The notes beneath the pieces were generated by a model, which saw only the letters and a program-made list of their open reading frames with translations, did not search any database and had not been told where the DNA came from. A DNA stretch of 62,415 nucleotides from Candidatus Saccharimonadota bacterium (GTDB lineage: Bacteria; Patescibacteriota; Saccharimonadia; Saccharimonadales; Saccharimonadaceae): contig JAFRJG010000011.1 of assembly GCA_017432365.1 (NCBI GenBank), positions 1 to 62,415 of the forward strand. Direction: 5' to 3'. This document shows positions 37,337 through 43,544 of this stretch, piece by piece. The position numbers and the translations under genes are program-made. The number at the start of each line of letters is the position of its first letter. Positions within the stretch are counted from its first letter, which is position 1.

Positions 37337-37413
37337 GCACCCGTAGCTCAGCGGATTAGAGCACTTGTCTTCGGAACAAGGGGTCGTAGGTTCGAATCCT
37401 ATCGGGTGTACCA
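37337..37413 (+). tRNA. tRNA-Arg (TCG), insertion target
   Basis: Acceptor GCACCCG / CGGGTGT, anticodon loop CTTCGGA giving TCG, T-arm GTAGG TTCGAAT CCTAT and encoded CCA. The mobile element begins in its 3' end (GGTGTACCA, 37405-37413); the tRNA remains complete. The recombinase stop codon is at 37399-37401 on the other strand. Confidence 0.94.
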
Positions 37414-38997
37414 TTCTGAAATTAAGTCCTCTTTGAGGTCTTTTTTCATCTGTTGTAAGTCGGTTCGAGCCAAATTATACTTCTCTTTCAGTTCAGGATA
37501 AGTTTTTTCAATCGGTACAAGATACTTTATAGGGGTAAATTGTATGGTTCGACCCGAAAGTTTCAGATCTGCGCCCAGCCTTTTTATCACGGCTCTTTTC
37601 TTCTCCCAGTCATCGCTGTCAAAATCCTCTTTAGCATAACGAGCAAACATGAAAATGTCGGTTGCGGTCTCTCTCCAGTCATGCGCCACAGTCAAAACCT
37701 TGTCTCGCTCATGCTCTAATACTACAATGTCTTTTTCTAATGATTCTTGCTCGGACAAGAAAAAGGCATTGTCGGTAATTATTCCTCTATAAACCGACCG
37801 TCTTAAACCGTCTAACTCATTTTTCTTTTGGGCAATTAACCTGTTATATTTTGCAATTTCATCATTCTGCTTAGCTACTTCAATATCATCTTCCTCTGCT
37901 AAAGCTTCCACTGCAAGCCTGAAAAAGTCCTCATCTATGGTATATTTGCTCAGCTCGTCCTTAATTTGTTTTATTAGTTCTTCTTCTCTAATGTAAATGG
38001 AGCGGTTTTTACAACGCTCATGAGGGTTTTTATCGCAACAATGGCAGTATCGGTGCTCCCTGATAGTGCCGTCTTTTAGTTTCTTAAACTTTCTCTCTGT
38101 TACAATGGCATATCCACACTCTGTACAGGTTAACATCCCTCTTAATAAAAACTGATAGGGTTCTTTTTGAGGTCTGCTAGCGTGATGCGGTTTTAAGATT
38201 TCTTGCATATGCTCAAATTCATCTTCCGTAATCATAGCGGGGTGATTCCCATTATATATCGTTTTCGCCCACCTCAGTTTGCCCGCATAAAATGGATTGG
38301 TTAGGATACCACGTACAGCATTATGGCAGAGCGCGCCACCACCGCTACGCTTTTTAAGCGGCTTCCTTATTCTTAGCTCCTCGTCAGCAATTCTAGTGAG
38401 TTCCGCAACAGTATAAGTGCCAGTAAGGGCTTTTCGCCATAGCATCGAAACCTTATCCCATGTCGCAGGGTCTTTGATGATTTTCTTTTCAATACGATCA
38501 TTCAGATAACCGATAGGCGGACAGCCTGGAAAATCCCCCTTGTCTGCTTTTGAATACATGCCACGTTTAACTTTGGCTTTTAGCTCTTTCACAAATCTGC
38601 TGTTCATGCTATTCTCAATAGAGAAAAGCAACTCATCATTTTCGCGGTACCACTTCTCGTGTGTCCTGATGCCAGACAAGACCCCGCTATCAAGTAGCCA
38701 TTGTAAATCACCGCCGTCCTTTGCGTTACGTGATAACCGACTAGTATCCCATGTAAGAATAACGTTATACTTGCCGTCCGATACGTTTTTCATCATTTCG
38801 CCAAACTTAACCCTTACGTTTGGTTCTTTCGCGCTTTTAGCCTCCGATAATATCTCAACAATTTGCAGGCCCTCATCCTTTGCTATCTCTTTCATAATCC
38901 TGATTTGATCGTCAATAGACTGGACTTGTTTGTCCTCTGATTCGGTAGATTTACGTGCGTAAAGCACGGCTCGTTTGGCTTGGTTTTGCTTATTCAT
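37399..38997 (-). CDS. Large serine recombinase
   Basis: A 532-residue recombinase. The N-terminal resolvase domain has YARKS with the catalytic Ser17 and TWDTSRLSRN; a Recombinase domain (about 160-260) and a zinc ribbon (CTECGY then CHCC and CKNRS, about 300-340) follow, then coiled coil (about 370-430). This type integrates and excises DNA between short att sites. Its C-terminus is encoded by the tRNA-Arg 3' end and the TAG stop belongs to the tRNA. In the circular form the frame would continue for about 25 residues across the rebuilt site. tRNA insertion is more usual for tyrosine recombinases. Confidence 0.94.
   Translation of the reverse strand: MNKQNQAKRAVLYARKSTESEDKQVQSIDDQIRIMKEIAKDEGLQIVEILSEAKSAKEPNVRVKFGEMMKNVSDGKYNVILTWDTSRLSRNAKDGGDLQWLLDSGVLSGIRTHEKWYRENDELLFSIENSMNSRFVKELKAKVKRGMYSKADKGDFPGCPPIGYLNDRIEKKIIKDPATWDKVSMLWRKALTGTYTVAELTRIADEELRIRKPLKKRSGGGALCHNAVRGILTNPFYAGKLRWAKTIYNGNHPAMITEDEFEHMQEILKPHHASRPQKEPYQFLLRGMLTCTECGYAIVTERKFKKLKDGTIREHRYCHCCDKNPHERCKNRSIYIREEELIKQIKDELSKYTIDEDFFRLAVEALAEEDDIEVAKQNDEIAKYNRLIAQKKNELDGLRRSVYRGIITDNAFFLSEQESLEKDIVVLEHERDKVLTVAHDWRETATDIFMFARYAKEDFDSDDWEKKRAVIKRLGADLKLSGRTIQFTPIKYLVPIEKTYPELKEKYNLARTDLQQMKKDLKEDLISEWYTR
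37405..37413 (+). repeat. attL core direct repeat
   Basis: GGTGTACCA at the tRNA-Arg 3' end. The same nine bases recur at 43950-43958. Confidence 0.7.
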
Positions 38998-39000
38998 AAA

Positions 39001-39125
39001 ACTCCTTTTCTACCCAAAAAGGGTAGCCGATTGTTCCACATCCAGAGCGTAAAACCCTTTCTGCTTCGGCTACCCTACATCGGGCAGAAAGAAAACGGTT
39101 TTACGTTATATCTGAATATGGAACA
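39001..39125 (-). ncRNA. Pseudoknotted leader RNA A, upstream of recombinase
   Basis: Starts at TATAAT (39131-39136, minus). Predicted pairs: P1 of 15 bp (39111-39125 with 39032-39046, two G-U), P2 of 9 bp (39097-39105 with 39048-39056), P3 of 7 bp (39084-39090 with 39058-39064). The P3 loop holds GGGTAGCCGA (39066-39075), complementary over 10 nt to TCGGCTACCC (39021-39030) outside P1, a pseudoknot. The latter can instead form a hairpin (39010-39026) touching the Shine-Dalgarno AAAAGGAG (39002-39009). Not matched to a known RNA family by eye. Confidence 0.7.
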
Positions 39126-39130
39126 TCTTA

Positions 39131-39136
39131 ATTATA
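39131..39136 (-). promoter_or_regulatory. -10 box of recombinase transcript
   Basis: TATAAT (minus), about 6 nt before the predicted 5' end of leader A. Confidence 0.6.
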
Positions 39137-39142
39137 TCACAT

Positions 39143-41092
39143 TTAATCTGTTTCTTCCATACCGTCCTCTTCGTCATCGAAGAAAACGAGCGGAATGATT
39201 AGCTTCTGACGCTTGTCGTTTTCGTCCTTGTCGCAACTAACTAACGCAGCGGTTTCTAACGCCGGAATGTACTGTTTGCGGAGATTTTCTACATTTGGAT
39301 AACTCCCAGTTTGGTTATAGTATTCCTTGCATATTTCGCTGTATGTAATACCTTTCCTCTGAATACCACTTCTGCTATTAGCGCGATAAACAGCTAAAAT
39401 GATATTAATATAAAAGCTGAATACCTGTGGCGAAACACCATAAGCCATACTCTTATTAAGAGGAGTCCAAAGTTTCATGGCTTCGTCAACGTCTTTGTTG
39501 GTGGCAATTATTTTGCCATCGATCATTCTAAAAGGCGCATTTAGTAACGCCATCGCTTTTACTAAAGAGATGAAGTGTGAGATTTCGCGTTGCGTTTTAG
39601 GCAACAAGGCTTTTCTCCCATCCATAAACTTGCGTTTTAGATAATCGCTGTTATCAATATCAATGGTATCAACTTTTAACCCCTTAATATGTAGCACTCG
39701 TTCCTTTAGTCGTTTACGTTCCTCATTACCCTCTATTAGAGCATTGTAGGCGTTTTTATGGCTATTCCTGGCAATACTAGTATCAACACCCGCCTTAACT
39801 TTCTCCTGTGTGCTTTCAGGGCTTAAAATTAGGCACCGCGTCTGTTCCTGCTCGTCAATCCGCATATTTGCAGAGCAGAAGAAAGTGGATGGAAACCCCA
39901 GTATATACCCTTCCATTGCCGTGTTTTTACCATTCTTGCCTTTATTAGTAATAGCAAAAGGGGTGCGCTTGTTATCGTGAGACAAGAGGGCTCGCAGATT
40001 TTCTTGCAATTGCGTATCTGGCTGCTCAGTGAAAACTAATATGCGACGCTCCAGATTAATGAAAGGTTGCCCTGTTTTACGATCCGTCTCTTGCAGGCTT
40101 TGGCTATAATAAAAAGCCGTAGGTGTAGTTTTGCCATAAACTTTTACATCTTGGGGCGGGAAATACTTACTAACTTCGCTACAGATATATGTCTTTCCAG
40201 TAGAACTACTAGCGTTAAACATAACGTTTTGTTGGTCTGATTCGGTGTACGCTAAAAGCATAACTAAAAATGTTACTACTTTGCTTACAAAGTCGTATTT
40301 AATCGTTAGGTCAAGCACATCCGCAATATCTTCAACTGTCATTTCCTTAAATCGAGATGCATTGAAAGGCTTCGTTCCGCCGTAAAACTCAGCATACTTC
40401 GACAGGAGCTCATCGGCTGTACCTAATTCCTCGGCAAAATAGTCCGTGAGACTTGAACAGGGCAGTGAGATTTTGTAAACAGATGCCATCGGGACTTGCT
40501 TCGTTAAGCGTTGGACAAGTTCCTCCATAATCTTATCGTCATTTATACATAAGTAAATGTTGCGCATATTTTTTAACGAACCAATCCACTCATTCCTAAG
40601 TTCAGCTCCACCACCAGTGACCACTGGCATTTTGACCCCCTCTTGGATAGCAATAATGCGATCCAGTTCGTCATCGCAAATCAGAACGTCGCTTGAAGTA
40701 CTTTTAATGAGTAAATCTTCGCCAACGAGCAACGGGTCTGCATCGATTGGATAAATCATATATTTCGAAATTGGCTCTCCGCCCAGCATCTCCGCCCCAA
40801 CCTCACTTCTGTCGTCAGCTGGCGTTCTGAGGAGTTTTATATAAGCCACCTTGCCATCTCTATCGAAGACTGGTATACTGAATCTATAGTGTTCGTCAAA
40901 TTTTGCTAAACCTAGCATAAATCTGTCGATACTACTATTACTAATACCACGTCCGTTGAAATAATCACGGACGTCTTTGCTTTCTCGCGCGTCTCTATGA
41001 GCCTTGCGTACTAGCGTTTCTAGCGACACTCCACTTTTCATCTTGGTGGGTTTTTGTCCCTCATTTGTTTTTGTTAAATTATTAATCTTCAT
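39143..41092 (-). CDS. Primase-helicase-like replication protein
   Basis: A 649-residue protein. Residues 40-70 (YFNGRGISNSSIDRFMLGLA) resemble the DnaG-type N-terminal segment, and residues 137-155 resemble a degenerate TOPRIM motif. The C-terminal half is a P-loop ATPase: FNASSSTGKTYI (Walker A about 293-301) and RRILVFTEQPD (Walker B-like). Arrangement suggests initiation and unwinding at the element's own origin, so the element can probably replicate when excised. It starts 4 nt after the stop of the 47-residue gene. Codon use (ATA, TTA, AGT) is unlike the host. Confidence 0.72.
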   Translation of the reverse strand: MKINNLTKTNEGQKPTKMKSGVSLETLVRKAHRDARESKDVRDYFNGRGISNSSIDRFMLGLAKFDEHYRFSIPVFDRDGKVAYIKLLRTPADDRSEVGAEMLGGEPISKYMIYPIDADPLLVGEDLLIKSTSSDVLICDDELDRIIAIQEGVKMPVVTGGGAELRNEWIGSLKNMRNIYLCINDDKIMEELVQRLTKQVPMASVYKISLPCSSLTDYFAEELGTADELLSKYAEFYGGTKPFNASRFKEMTVEDIADVLDLTIKYDFVSKVVTFLVMLLAYTESDQQNVMFNASSSTGKTYICSEVSKYFPPQDVKVYGKTTPTAFYYSQSLQETDRKTGQPFINLERRILVFTEQPDTQLQENLRALLSHDNKRTPFAITNKGKNGKNTAMEGYILGFPSTFFCSANMRIDEQEQTRCLILSPESTQEKVKAGVDTSIARNSHKNAYNALIEGNEERKRLKERVLHIKGLKVDTIDIDNSDYLKRKFMDGRKALLPKTQREISHFISLVKAMALLNAPFRMIDGKIIATNKDVDEAMKLWTPLNKSMAYGVSPQVFSFYINIILAVYRANSRSGIQRKGITYSEICKEYYNQTGSYPNVENLRKQYIPALETAALVSCDKDENDKRQKLIIPLVFFDDEEDGMEETD

Positions 41093-42379: not shown

Positions 42380-42775
42380 CTAAATGAGCGATTTAATGTC
42401 AATGATTTGACCGCGTTTCGTGATAAAAATTAACTCACCAATCTGTTTTTGCTCTTTAGCTTTCTTAACGAGGAAACGCCGCAAATTGTCGTCGCGCATA
42501 TTTTTAATTCTCGACGAATCAAATATAATGTTCTTAGCCTGTTTTAGCCCACGTTTGATATTCCGCTCTAGCTTATCTAGCTTATTAGTAAACGGAGACT
42601 TCATTTCGTATTCTACCCCGTCTAATAAAATGTCTGCGGTGCTGATATTGGATTCTGGAAGAAACTCAATGTTATGACCAGCGGAAGCTAAAATGTCAGC
42701 AATACGAAGCTCATGCGCCCATGGTCTACGCCCAGCAGGTATAATAATCCTGCCTCTTTGTTTTGGGTTATTCAT
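42380..42775 (-). CDS. CdiA C-terminal tRNase-like protein
   Basis: A 131-residue stand-alone protein resembling the CdiA C-terminal tRNase domain: ADILLDGVEYEMKSP with D48, E57 and K59 in PD-(D/E)xK-like order, a basic helix, and IGELIFITKRGQIIDI at the end. Such domains cut tRNA when delivered by toxin systems. Start at 42775 is chosen because TATAAT (42782-42787) ends exactly 6 nt before this ATG; a longer frame extends 14 codons upstream. No antitoxin is identified; the membrane protein upstream is a possible partner. Confidence 0.68.
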   Translation of the reverse strand: MNNPKQRGRIIIPAGRRPWAHELRIADILASAGHNIEFLPESNISTADILLDGVEYEMKSPFTNKLDKLERNIKRGLKQAKNIIFDSSRIKNMRDDNLRRFLVKKAKEQKQIGELIFITKRGQIIDIKSLI

Positions 42776-42781
42776 TACCCT

Positions 42782-42787
42782 ATTATA
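42782..42787 (-). promoter_or_regulatory. -10 box of tRNase-like gene
   Basis: TATAAT (minus) exactly 6 nt before the ATG at 42775. It lies at the end of the upstream gene. Confidence 0.6.
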
Positions 42788-43346
42788 ACATATCTTCGGC
42801 GTCGTCGTCCGGCTCATCAGTCGGTTCGGTCTTCGGCGATTTGTTTGCCTTTTCCGCTTCCTCTTCTCGTTCCTGCAATATCAAGGACTTGGTGGCTTTA
42901 TGCTTTTTTAAGTCATCAGCGTATCGCTTTTTCATTGCATTATTAAAAACAATGGTAGCTATAAAAACACCATAAAACACTGCCAATAATAAATATCCGA
43001 CCCATCCCAAATCATGGTTCGACGCTAAAACAGAAACCACAACCAATACAGCCCAGATAATTTGAAATACCGTAGCGTTGTATCCTCTTAGCTTCCACCG
43101 TTCTACAATAGCCATAGCAAAAGCAGTTGGCAACCCAAGCAAGACTCCGTAAAATAACCCACCTAGTAAACCAGACAATACTACTGCTTCAGATGTAACT
43201 TGTAAATGAGATTGCGAAGAGGCAGGAGAGTCCACATTTGCTACCGAAAAACAACCTCCAATGATAACCCAAGCAATTAAGTAGCCCCAAAAAGTTCTAT
43301 AAACTCTGCGTTTTATTTCATTTTCTATAGCTGTTTTGTTTGGCAT
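42783..43346 (-). CDS. Four-helix membrane protein of the element
   Basis: A 187-residue protein with four predicted membrane helices (about 20-37, 55-80, 95-112, 117-137) and a charged acidic C-terminal tail (EEEAEKANKSP, then DEPDDDAED). It is the first gene after leader RNA B and ends within the promoter of the tRNase-like gene. Membrane proteins next to CDI-type toxin domains can be immunity or transport partners, but that is inference. No family is recognised. Confidence 0.6.
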   Translation of the reverse strand: MPNKTAIENEIKRRVYRTFWGYLIAWVIIGGCFSVANVDSPASSQSHLQVTSEAVVLSGLLGGLFYGVLLGLPTAFAMAIVERWKLRGYNATVFQIIWAVLVVVSVLASNHDLGWVGYLLLAVFYGVFIATIVFNNAMKKRYADDLKKHKATKSLILQEREEEAEKANKSPKTEPTDEPDDDAEDML

Positions 43347-43533
43347 GGAGCACCTTTCGTTGTTATACGTAGATGTCCCTTAAACTAAATGGGACACCCG
43401 CTATTGGGTGTCCATACTCAATTTGCTGCAGAAAGGCGTTAGCCCGACTGGAGCGGGTGCCCCACAAAGGGGCTAATTCGATTATCCACAGTAGTCATCT
43501 GTGAACCTTTCGACAGCTTATGAATATGGACAT
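43347..43533 (-). ncRNA. Pseudoknotted leader RNA B, upstream of membrane protein
   Basis: Starts at TATAAT (43539-43544, minus). P1 of 12 bp (43521-43532 with 43409-43420, one G-U), P2 of 12 positions with one mismatch and one G-U (43506-43517 with 43425-43436), a small hairpin (43487-43503) and P3 of 7 bp (43470-43476 with 43439-43445). The P3 loop holds CACCCGCT (43452-43459), complementary to AGCGGGTG (43395-43402) outside P1. A competing hairpin (43392-43413) uses the same strand. Topology equals leader A though most stems differ in sequence. Confidence 0.7.
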
Positions 43534-43538
43534 TACTA

Positions 43539-43544
43539 ATTATA
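43539..43544 (-). promoter_or_regulatory. -10 box of leader B transcript
   Basis: TATAAT (minus) with TGG before it (extended -10). Confidence 0.6.

Follow-up and report, generated by a model that had tools for sequence, protein, structure and literature searches.

Pseudoknotted leader RNAs before recombinase and cargo genes in Patescibacteria, and a probable attenuator in a Saccharimonadota mobile element

The element and the anatomy of its two leaders

The DNA analyzed (the window) is a 62,415-nt contig of a Candidatus Saccharimonadota bacterium (JAFRJG010000011.1). Its minus strand carries an element with the gene of a large serine recombinase, preceded by a structured leader (leader A), and a cargo operon preceded by a second one (leader B). 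For a further element protein of 649 aa, encoded at 39143-41092, the only match was a weak one to a primase (phrog_47, E 4e-7). The features are as follows, all on the minus strand.

43539-43544, minus: TATAAT, the -10 box in the promoter of leader B, with P1 beginning shortly 3' of it, near +1
43391-43532, minus: leader B, between the TATAAT box and the first cargo gene
43521-43532, minus: P1 5' strand, 12 bp with 43409-43420 (covariation, helix 1)
43409-43420, minus: P1 3' strand, whose 3' end overlaps X, the 5' arm of the terminator-like hairpin
43506-43517, minus: P2 5' strand, paired with 43425-43436 with one mismatch (helices 2-3)
43425-43436, minus: P2 3' strand, paired with 43506-43517
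43487-43503, minus: side hairpin CACAG...CUGUG between P2 and P3, arms 43499-43503 and 43487-43491 (covariation, helices 4-5)
43470-43476, minus: P3 5' strand UUAGCCC, 7 bp with 43439-43445 (helix 6)
43439-43445, minus: P3 3' strand GGGCUAA, paired with 43470-43476 (helix 6)
43452-43463, minus: L, the P3-loop strand of the 12-bp pseudoknot, GGGGCACCCGCU (helix 7; 0 of 100 shuffles)
43391-43402, minus: T, the tail strand of the pseudoknot, AGCGGGUGUCCC, doubling as the 3' arm of the terminator-like hairpin
43392-43413, minus: X-T terminator-like hairpin, GGACACCC-AAUAGC-GGGUGUCC
43380-43390, minus: U-rich stretch AUUUAGUUUAA, 3' of the X-T hairpin, weaker than the U-run of most other B-type leaders
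43372-43399, minus: alternative downstream hairpin of T, GGGUGUCCC with GGGACAUC
42783-43346, minus: first cargo gene behind leader B, 187-aa membrane protein
42380-42817, minus: second cargo gene, directly behind the first, 145 aa with a CdiA_C domain (PF18451)
39020-39136, minus: leader A, with its -10 box at 39131-39136 and the recombinase gene behind
39111-39124 with 39033-39046, minus: P1 of leader A
39097-39105 with 39048-39056, minus: P2 of leader A
39084-39090 with 39058-39064, minus: P3 of leader A
39066-39076 with 39020-39030, minus: pseudoknot of leader A
37399-38997, minus: large serine recombinase gene (Pfam), whose 3' end overlaps a tRNA-Arg at 37337-37413

The 12-bp P1, P2, P3, and the competing hairpin at 43392-43413, which the first-pass annotation had described for leader B, were all present on the minus strand. 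The loop-to-tail pseudoknot was also found, although it comprised 12 bp (43452-43463 with 43391-43402) and not the 8 bp given there. Leader A has the same topology, a P1-P2-P3 rod with a loop-tail pseudoknot, as had been stated. The 5' motif ATGT(T)CCATATTCA is indeed common to both leaders (repeat D2); however, it was rejected as a mark of the family, since it is only the 5' strand of P1 next to the -10 box and varies freely with P1. Relatives of the leaders preserve the P1 pairing, not the letters of the motif.

Even when folded as nested pairs alone, leader B was more stable than dinucleotide shuffles (z = -5.1; 0 of 200 as stable), and its best fold with the pseudoknot disallowed includes the alternative hairpin at 43372-43399. 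Ten homologues of leader B were identified in the same genus, located before different genes, one of them elsewhere in its own genome. This second copy (contig 9, 2985-3136, minus strand) lies before the gene of a 208-aa membrane protein and about 1.5 kb from another serine recombinase. In the alignment of the genus homologues, 94.8% of cells were paired and every helix was supported; two-sided changes were observed in 23 of 46 pairs, which bears out the compensatory change in the stems that had been suspected. None of 500 shuffles equalled this value, and structures slid along the alignment gave 35-41%. The X-T hairpin was paired in 98.8% of cells (10 distinct sequences). Sequence and covariation thus show the fold, the pseudoknot, and the X-T hairpin, with T as the partner common to L and X, and also the -10 box directly before P1 and the location before genes.

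Distribution and gene context of A-type and B-type leaders

Recombinase homologues from relatives carried the same leader upstream in five cases. Five trimmed sequences of this A-type were used as the seed of a covariance model, R1, which was refined to give R2. In the R1 seed, 95.8% of cells were paired and 23 of 38 pairs showed two-sided changes. The search with R1 gave matches in 32 of 393 genomes of the order, and that with R2 in 38 of 393 genomes of the class and 31 of 380 of the phylum, these three samples being overlapping ones. The covariance-model search for further members that had been suggested therefore found them, both A-type and, as given below, B-type, in many genomes. The gene downstream was readable in 51 distinct loci and was a large serine recombinase in every one, as called by eye from protein N-termini (for the window gene also by Pfam); two matches with E > 0.03, which look false, and one locus (L080) without an open reading frame in reach were set aside. 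R1 and R2 took no gene information, but their seeds were recombinase leaders.

The A-type pseudoknot measured 11-18 bp in 30 of 30 leaders, beyond every tail shuffle. A -10 box with no more than one mismatch was located before P1 in 52 of 53 A-types (background 15%), and in 51 of 53 the eight bases that follow the pseudoknot included four or more U. Leader A shares these traits: its rod and a loop-tail pseudoknot of at least 10 bp are followed by a U-rich stretch with a U4-U5 tract, no X arm is present, and it scored 84.6 bits with R2. The A-type leaders are a Patescibacteria-wide family, of which leader A is a member. Its output may lie in the control of translation, or the pseudoknot may cause pausing or termination. 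A leader peptide in leader A was considered and dropped, not being conserved among the A-type leaders compared by eye. The recombinase search of viral contigs returned no relatives.

Second leaders were sought in 26 stretches around recombinases with a scanner that needs only a -10 box, P1, P3, and the pseudoknot. The scanner also gives chance matches, and second leaders were accepted only on inspection or by a match to R3, a covariance model of six B-type leaders. A second leader, often divergent from the recombinase, was found in many recombinase elements, and R3 added more. Among about 27 recombinase elements read through their bodies, at least 16 had two leaders, the arrangement first seen in the window. 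Within the order, R3 matched 53 of 295 genomes, and several of these had three or four copies; E values of up to 0.1 were accepted, so that the weakest matches are uncertain. Across the phylum sample it matched only 5 of 221 genomes. A fixed-pattern search of a named genome collection returned 12 contigs: ten from Saccharibacteria, one from Nomurabacteria, and one from an Oscillospiraceae MAG, the only B-type in that collection outside Patescibacteria. From these named contigs we infer that the matched genomes belong to Saccharibacteria and Patescibacteria. The Oscillospiraceae case is possibly one of transfer or mis-binning; this contig (L164:570-760) also has serine recombinase-like reading frames. 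B-type leaders were also observed on two IMG/VR viral contigs (L166, L167).

Behind the B-types lie, among others, genes for DUF4352 and TM2 membrane proteins, for surface proteins and an OmpA-like protein, and for restriction-modification. In 28 of 29 B-types, a -10 box with no more than one mismatch preceded P1. Leader B, standing before a membrane-protein gene, lacks the recombinase position of the A-types. The expectation that members would lie upstream of recombinases and element genes thus held for the A-types, always before a recombinase, but only in part for the B-types, which also precede many unrelated genes outside recombinase elements. In view of this wider placement, coordinated control of excision and the first operon, which had been proposed from the two copies, is plausible at most. 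In one B-type (L026:5507-5680, genome G005), the P1 5' sequence GCUAAACUAU is repeated at the start codon of a methylase gene, and judging by this repeat the P1 3' strand could also mask that start codon.

Rival pairings of the tail

We then compared the pairings of the tail in 35 B-types. In all 35, an X-T hairpin was followed by a U-rich stretch, and the X arm was the end of the P1 3' strand. The L-T pairing measured 8-12 bp in 34 of the 35 and 13-14 bp in L026. It was equalled by none of 100 shuffles in 33 B-types; of the remaining two, L096 was equalled by 3 of 100 and L026 was outside the search range of that test. Furthermore, the three strands co-varied as L/T/X sets, namely GGCACC/GGUGUC/GACACC, GGGCGAC/GGUCGUC/GACGACC, GGGCAAC/GGUUGUC/GACAACC, and GGAGCACUC/GAGUGUUCC/GAACACUC. 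R3 encodes the commonest X and T letters and its matches are biased to them, yet the variant sets turned up regardless. Six of the 35 were found without requiring X: leader B itself by the earlier reader, and L021, L092, L089, L108, and L026 by the scanner. Within the genus alignment, the most variable column of T (A or G) shifted in step with both L and X. A further strand, U, lies upstream and offers L another partner; this pairing was within the top 5% of shuffles in 17 of 32 B-types, but leader B, L021, and L092 were not among them, and it was rejected as a core feature.

In leader B, the X-T hairpin at 43392-43413 has 8 bp and a predicted energy of -14.9 kcal/mol. The predicted energies favored the pseudoknot state by 8-16 kcal/mol before the pseudoknot penalty; after it, the two modeled states would be comparable, which is compatible with a switch. 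Because two strands compete for T, and one of them is a terminator arm, we propose that leader B is a cis-acting transcription attenuator in which the pseudoknot (read-through) competes with a terminator, and we give this reading a probability of about 0.65. The leader RNA would thus probably decide whether the genes behind it are read.

Under the attenuator model, transcription would start near the 5' base of P1, so that the message opens with the P1-P2-P3 rod. L and X are both complementary to T, which lies just before the U-rich stretch. Pairing of T with X would form a hairpin resembling an intrinsic terminator at the cost of the outer pairs of P1, whereas pairing of T with L would form a pseudoknot of 10-12 bp that leaves P1 whole and blocks the terminator. 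Since the outer pairs of P1 are common to X, two self-consistent states would result: the pseudoknot with a whole P1, and the terminator with a shortened P1. In the former, RNA polymerase would continue into the cargo operon, about 45 nt further. We infer termination by X-T, an ON state represented by the pseudoknot, and a signal of some kind that sets the balance between the two.

Several observations weigh against the attenuator model. Most other B-types have an uninterrupted run of U4 or more, whereas the run of leader B is interrupted (CAUUUAGUUU), as it is in most of its genus relatives (CAUUUAGUUUAA, CAUUUGGUUUUA). The terminator reading is weakened for leader B because of this interruption, and termination at leader B and these relatives may be weak. 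In addition, the pseudoknot adjoins the U-run and could itself promote pausing or termination. Textbook antiterminators capture the 5' arm of the terminator, and the rival pairing in leader B takes the 3' arm instead.

Alternatively, the pseudoknot might mainly govern ribosome access, with the freed tail pairing with the Shine-Dalgarno sequence or another downstream strand. The tail of leader A, with its anti-Shine-Dalgarno-like CCCUUU, can indeed pair beside the Shine-Dalgarno sequence (CUACCC-UUUUU-GGGUAG), and that of leader B can pair with downstream GGGACAUC. However, many distant A-types lack a recognizable Shine-Dalgarno sequence, and its sequestration was rejected as a general mechanism; B-type start codons lie a median of 34 nt after the model end, beyond the tail, and every B-type examined has the X-T hairpin and U-rich stretch instead. 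We therefore regard such a translational switch as unlikely.

Relationship of the two types and comparison with known RNAs

R2, whose training included A-type leaders only, was applied to 28 B-type loci (83.6 kb). Counting matches up to E = 10, all 16 were on B leaders, with a best E of 2e-4 and scores of up to 32.9 bits. The P3-loop motif UGCUCUU..AAUGGGC was also found in both types. Because R2 detects B-type leaders elsewhere, A-types and B-types, judged by these sequence matches, are related (sister) branches, which differ in their output ends: a terminator-like hairpin in the B-types and none in the A-types. Leader B itself scored 8.2 bits with R2 (E 0.26 in 1 kb, third among the matches there) and gave no significant match with R3, nothing being above -0.3 bits; its relatives L021 and L092 are likewise missed by R2. 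Its membership is read from the genus homologues and from the anatomy that it shares with the A-types, that is, the rod, the pseudoknot, and a (weaker) U-rich stretch. These poor scores, together with the low sequence identity between leaders A and B, would fit convergent folds rather than one family, which we consider improbable in view of the matches of R2 on the B-type loci and the common P3-loop motif.

Neither leader type matched Rfam 15 at the gathering score, and no weak match lay on the leaders. With homologues across Patescibacteria, this sustains the suggestion of a new RNA family. Our literature search found no paper on recombinase leaders with pseudoknots, nor on pseudoknots in Saccharibacteria. 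In terminator-type riboswitches (ZTP, preQ1-I, fluoride), a pseudoknot or antiterminator and a terminator hairpin are mutually exclusive upstream of the gene. Leader B resembles these and intrinsic attenuators in having exclusive alternatives in a leader just before a gene; in contrast to the riboswitches, it has no Rfam match, its upstream loop takes the 3' arm of the terminator, and its core is not a recognized aptamer. In the rep leader of IncB/IncI plasmids, a loop-to-leader pseudoknot switches translation on, and an antisense RNA blocks it. The leaders described here likewise have a hairpin loop paired to sequence shortly before the gene of a mobile element, but the B-types differ by their terminator-like hairpin.

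The nearest RNA in logic is LOOT (Rfam RF03000), which is typed as an sRNA and occurs in the same order (14 of 100 genomes); its model gave no match to leader A or B. Like the leaders, LOOT has a hairpin loop, that of its second hairpin, with 8-12 bp of complementarity to a tail immediately beyond the Rfam model; a U-rich stretch comes directly after this tail, and a gene after the stretch, clearly so in about 10 of 13 loci. This complementarity (L008:4091-4234; L139-L151) appears to be an unannotated pseudoknot. In one recombinase element, LOOT is divergent from the recombinase, the position of the B-type leader in other elements. Unlike leaders A and B, it consists of hairpins in a row with no P1 around them, and its conserved letters are different.

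The typing of LOOT, and a fold bracketed by a -10 box and a terminator-like hairpin, would suit a stand-alone, trans-acting RNA of about 150 nt with the downstream gene reached by chance read-through. We hold this to be very improbable, as a reading frame of at least 70 aa starts on the same strand within 100 nt downstream of 26 of 29 B-types, compared with 10.6 expected from random positions, and the constant recombinase gene behind the A-types implies a role in cis. Least probable of all is a 5' stabilizer, in which burial of the 5' end in P1, together with the pseudoknot, shields the message from 5' ribonucleases and the alternative pairings are incidental: P1 is near +1 in nearly all leaders of both types, judged by the -10 box, but such a role needs neither a tail co-varying with two rival partners nor a conserved U-rich stretch.

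In conclusion, leader B is a member of a family of gene-control RNAs in Patescibacteria that had not been catalogued before. The A branch of this family marks recombinase genes in integrative elements throughout the phylum, and its B branch precedes membrane and surface protein, restriction-modification, and cargo genes in the order. A rather speculative extension, in our view more doubtful than not by a wide measure, is a large class of signal-sensing leaders, so far uncatalogued, in bacteria that live as ultrasmall epibionts, with an upstream loop taking the 3' arm of the terminator, that joins recombinase expression, mobile-element cargo, restriction-modification, and surface proteins in one RNA-controlled regulon. 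The leader RNA is open to in vitro testing without host culture. If the switch answers a signal, it would offer a handle on the timing of element movement and on the expression of epibiont surface proteins.
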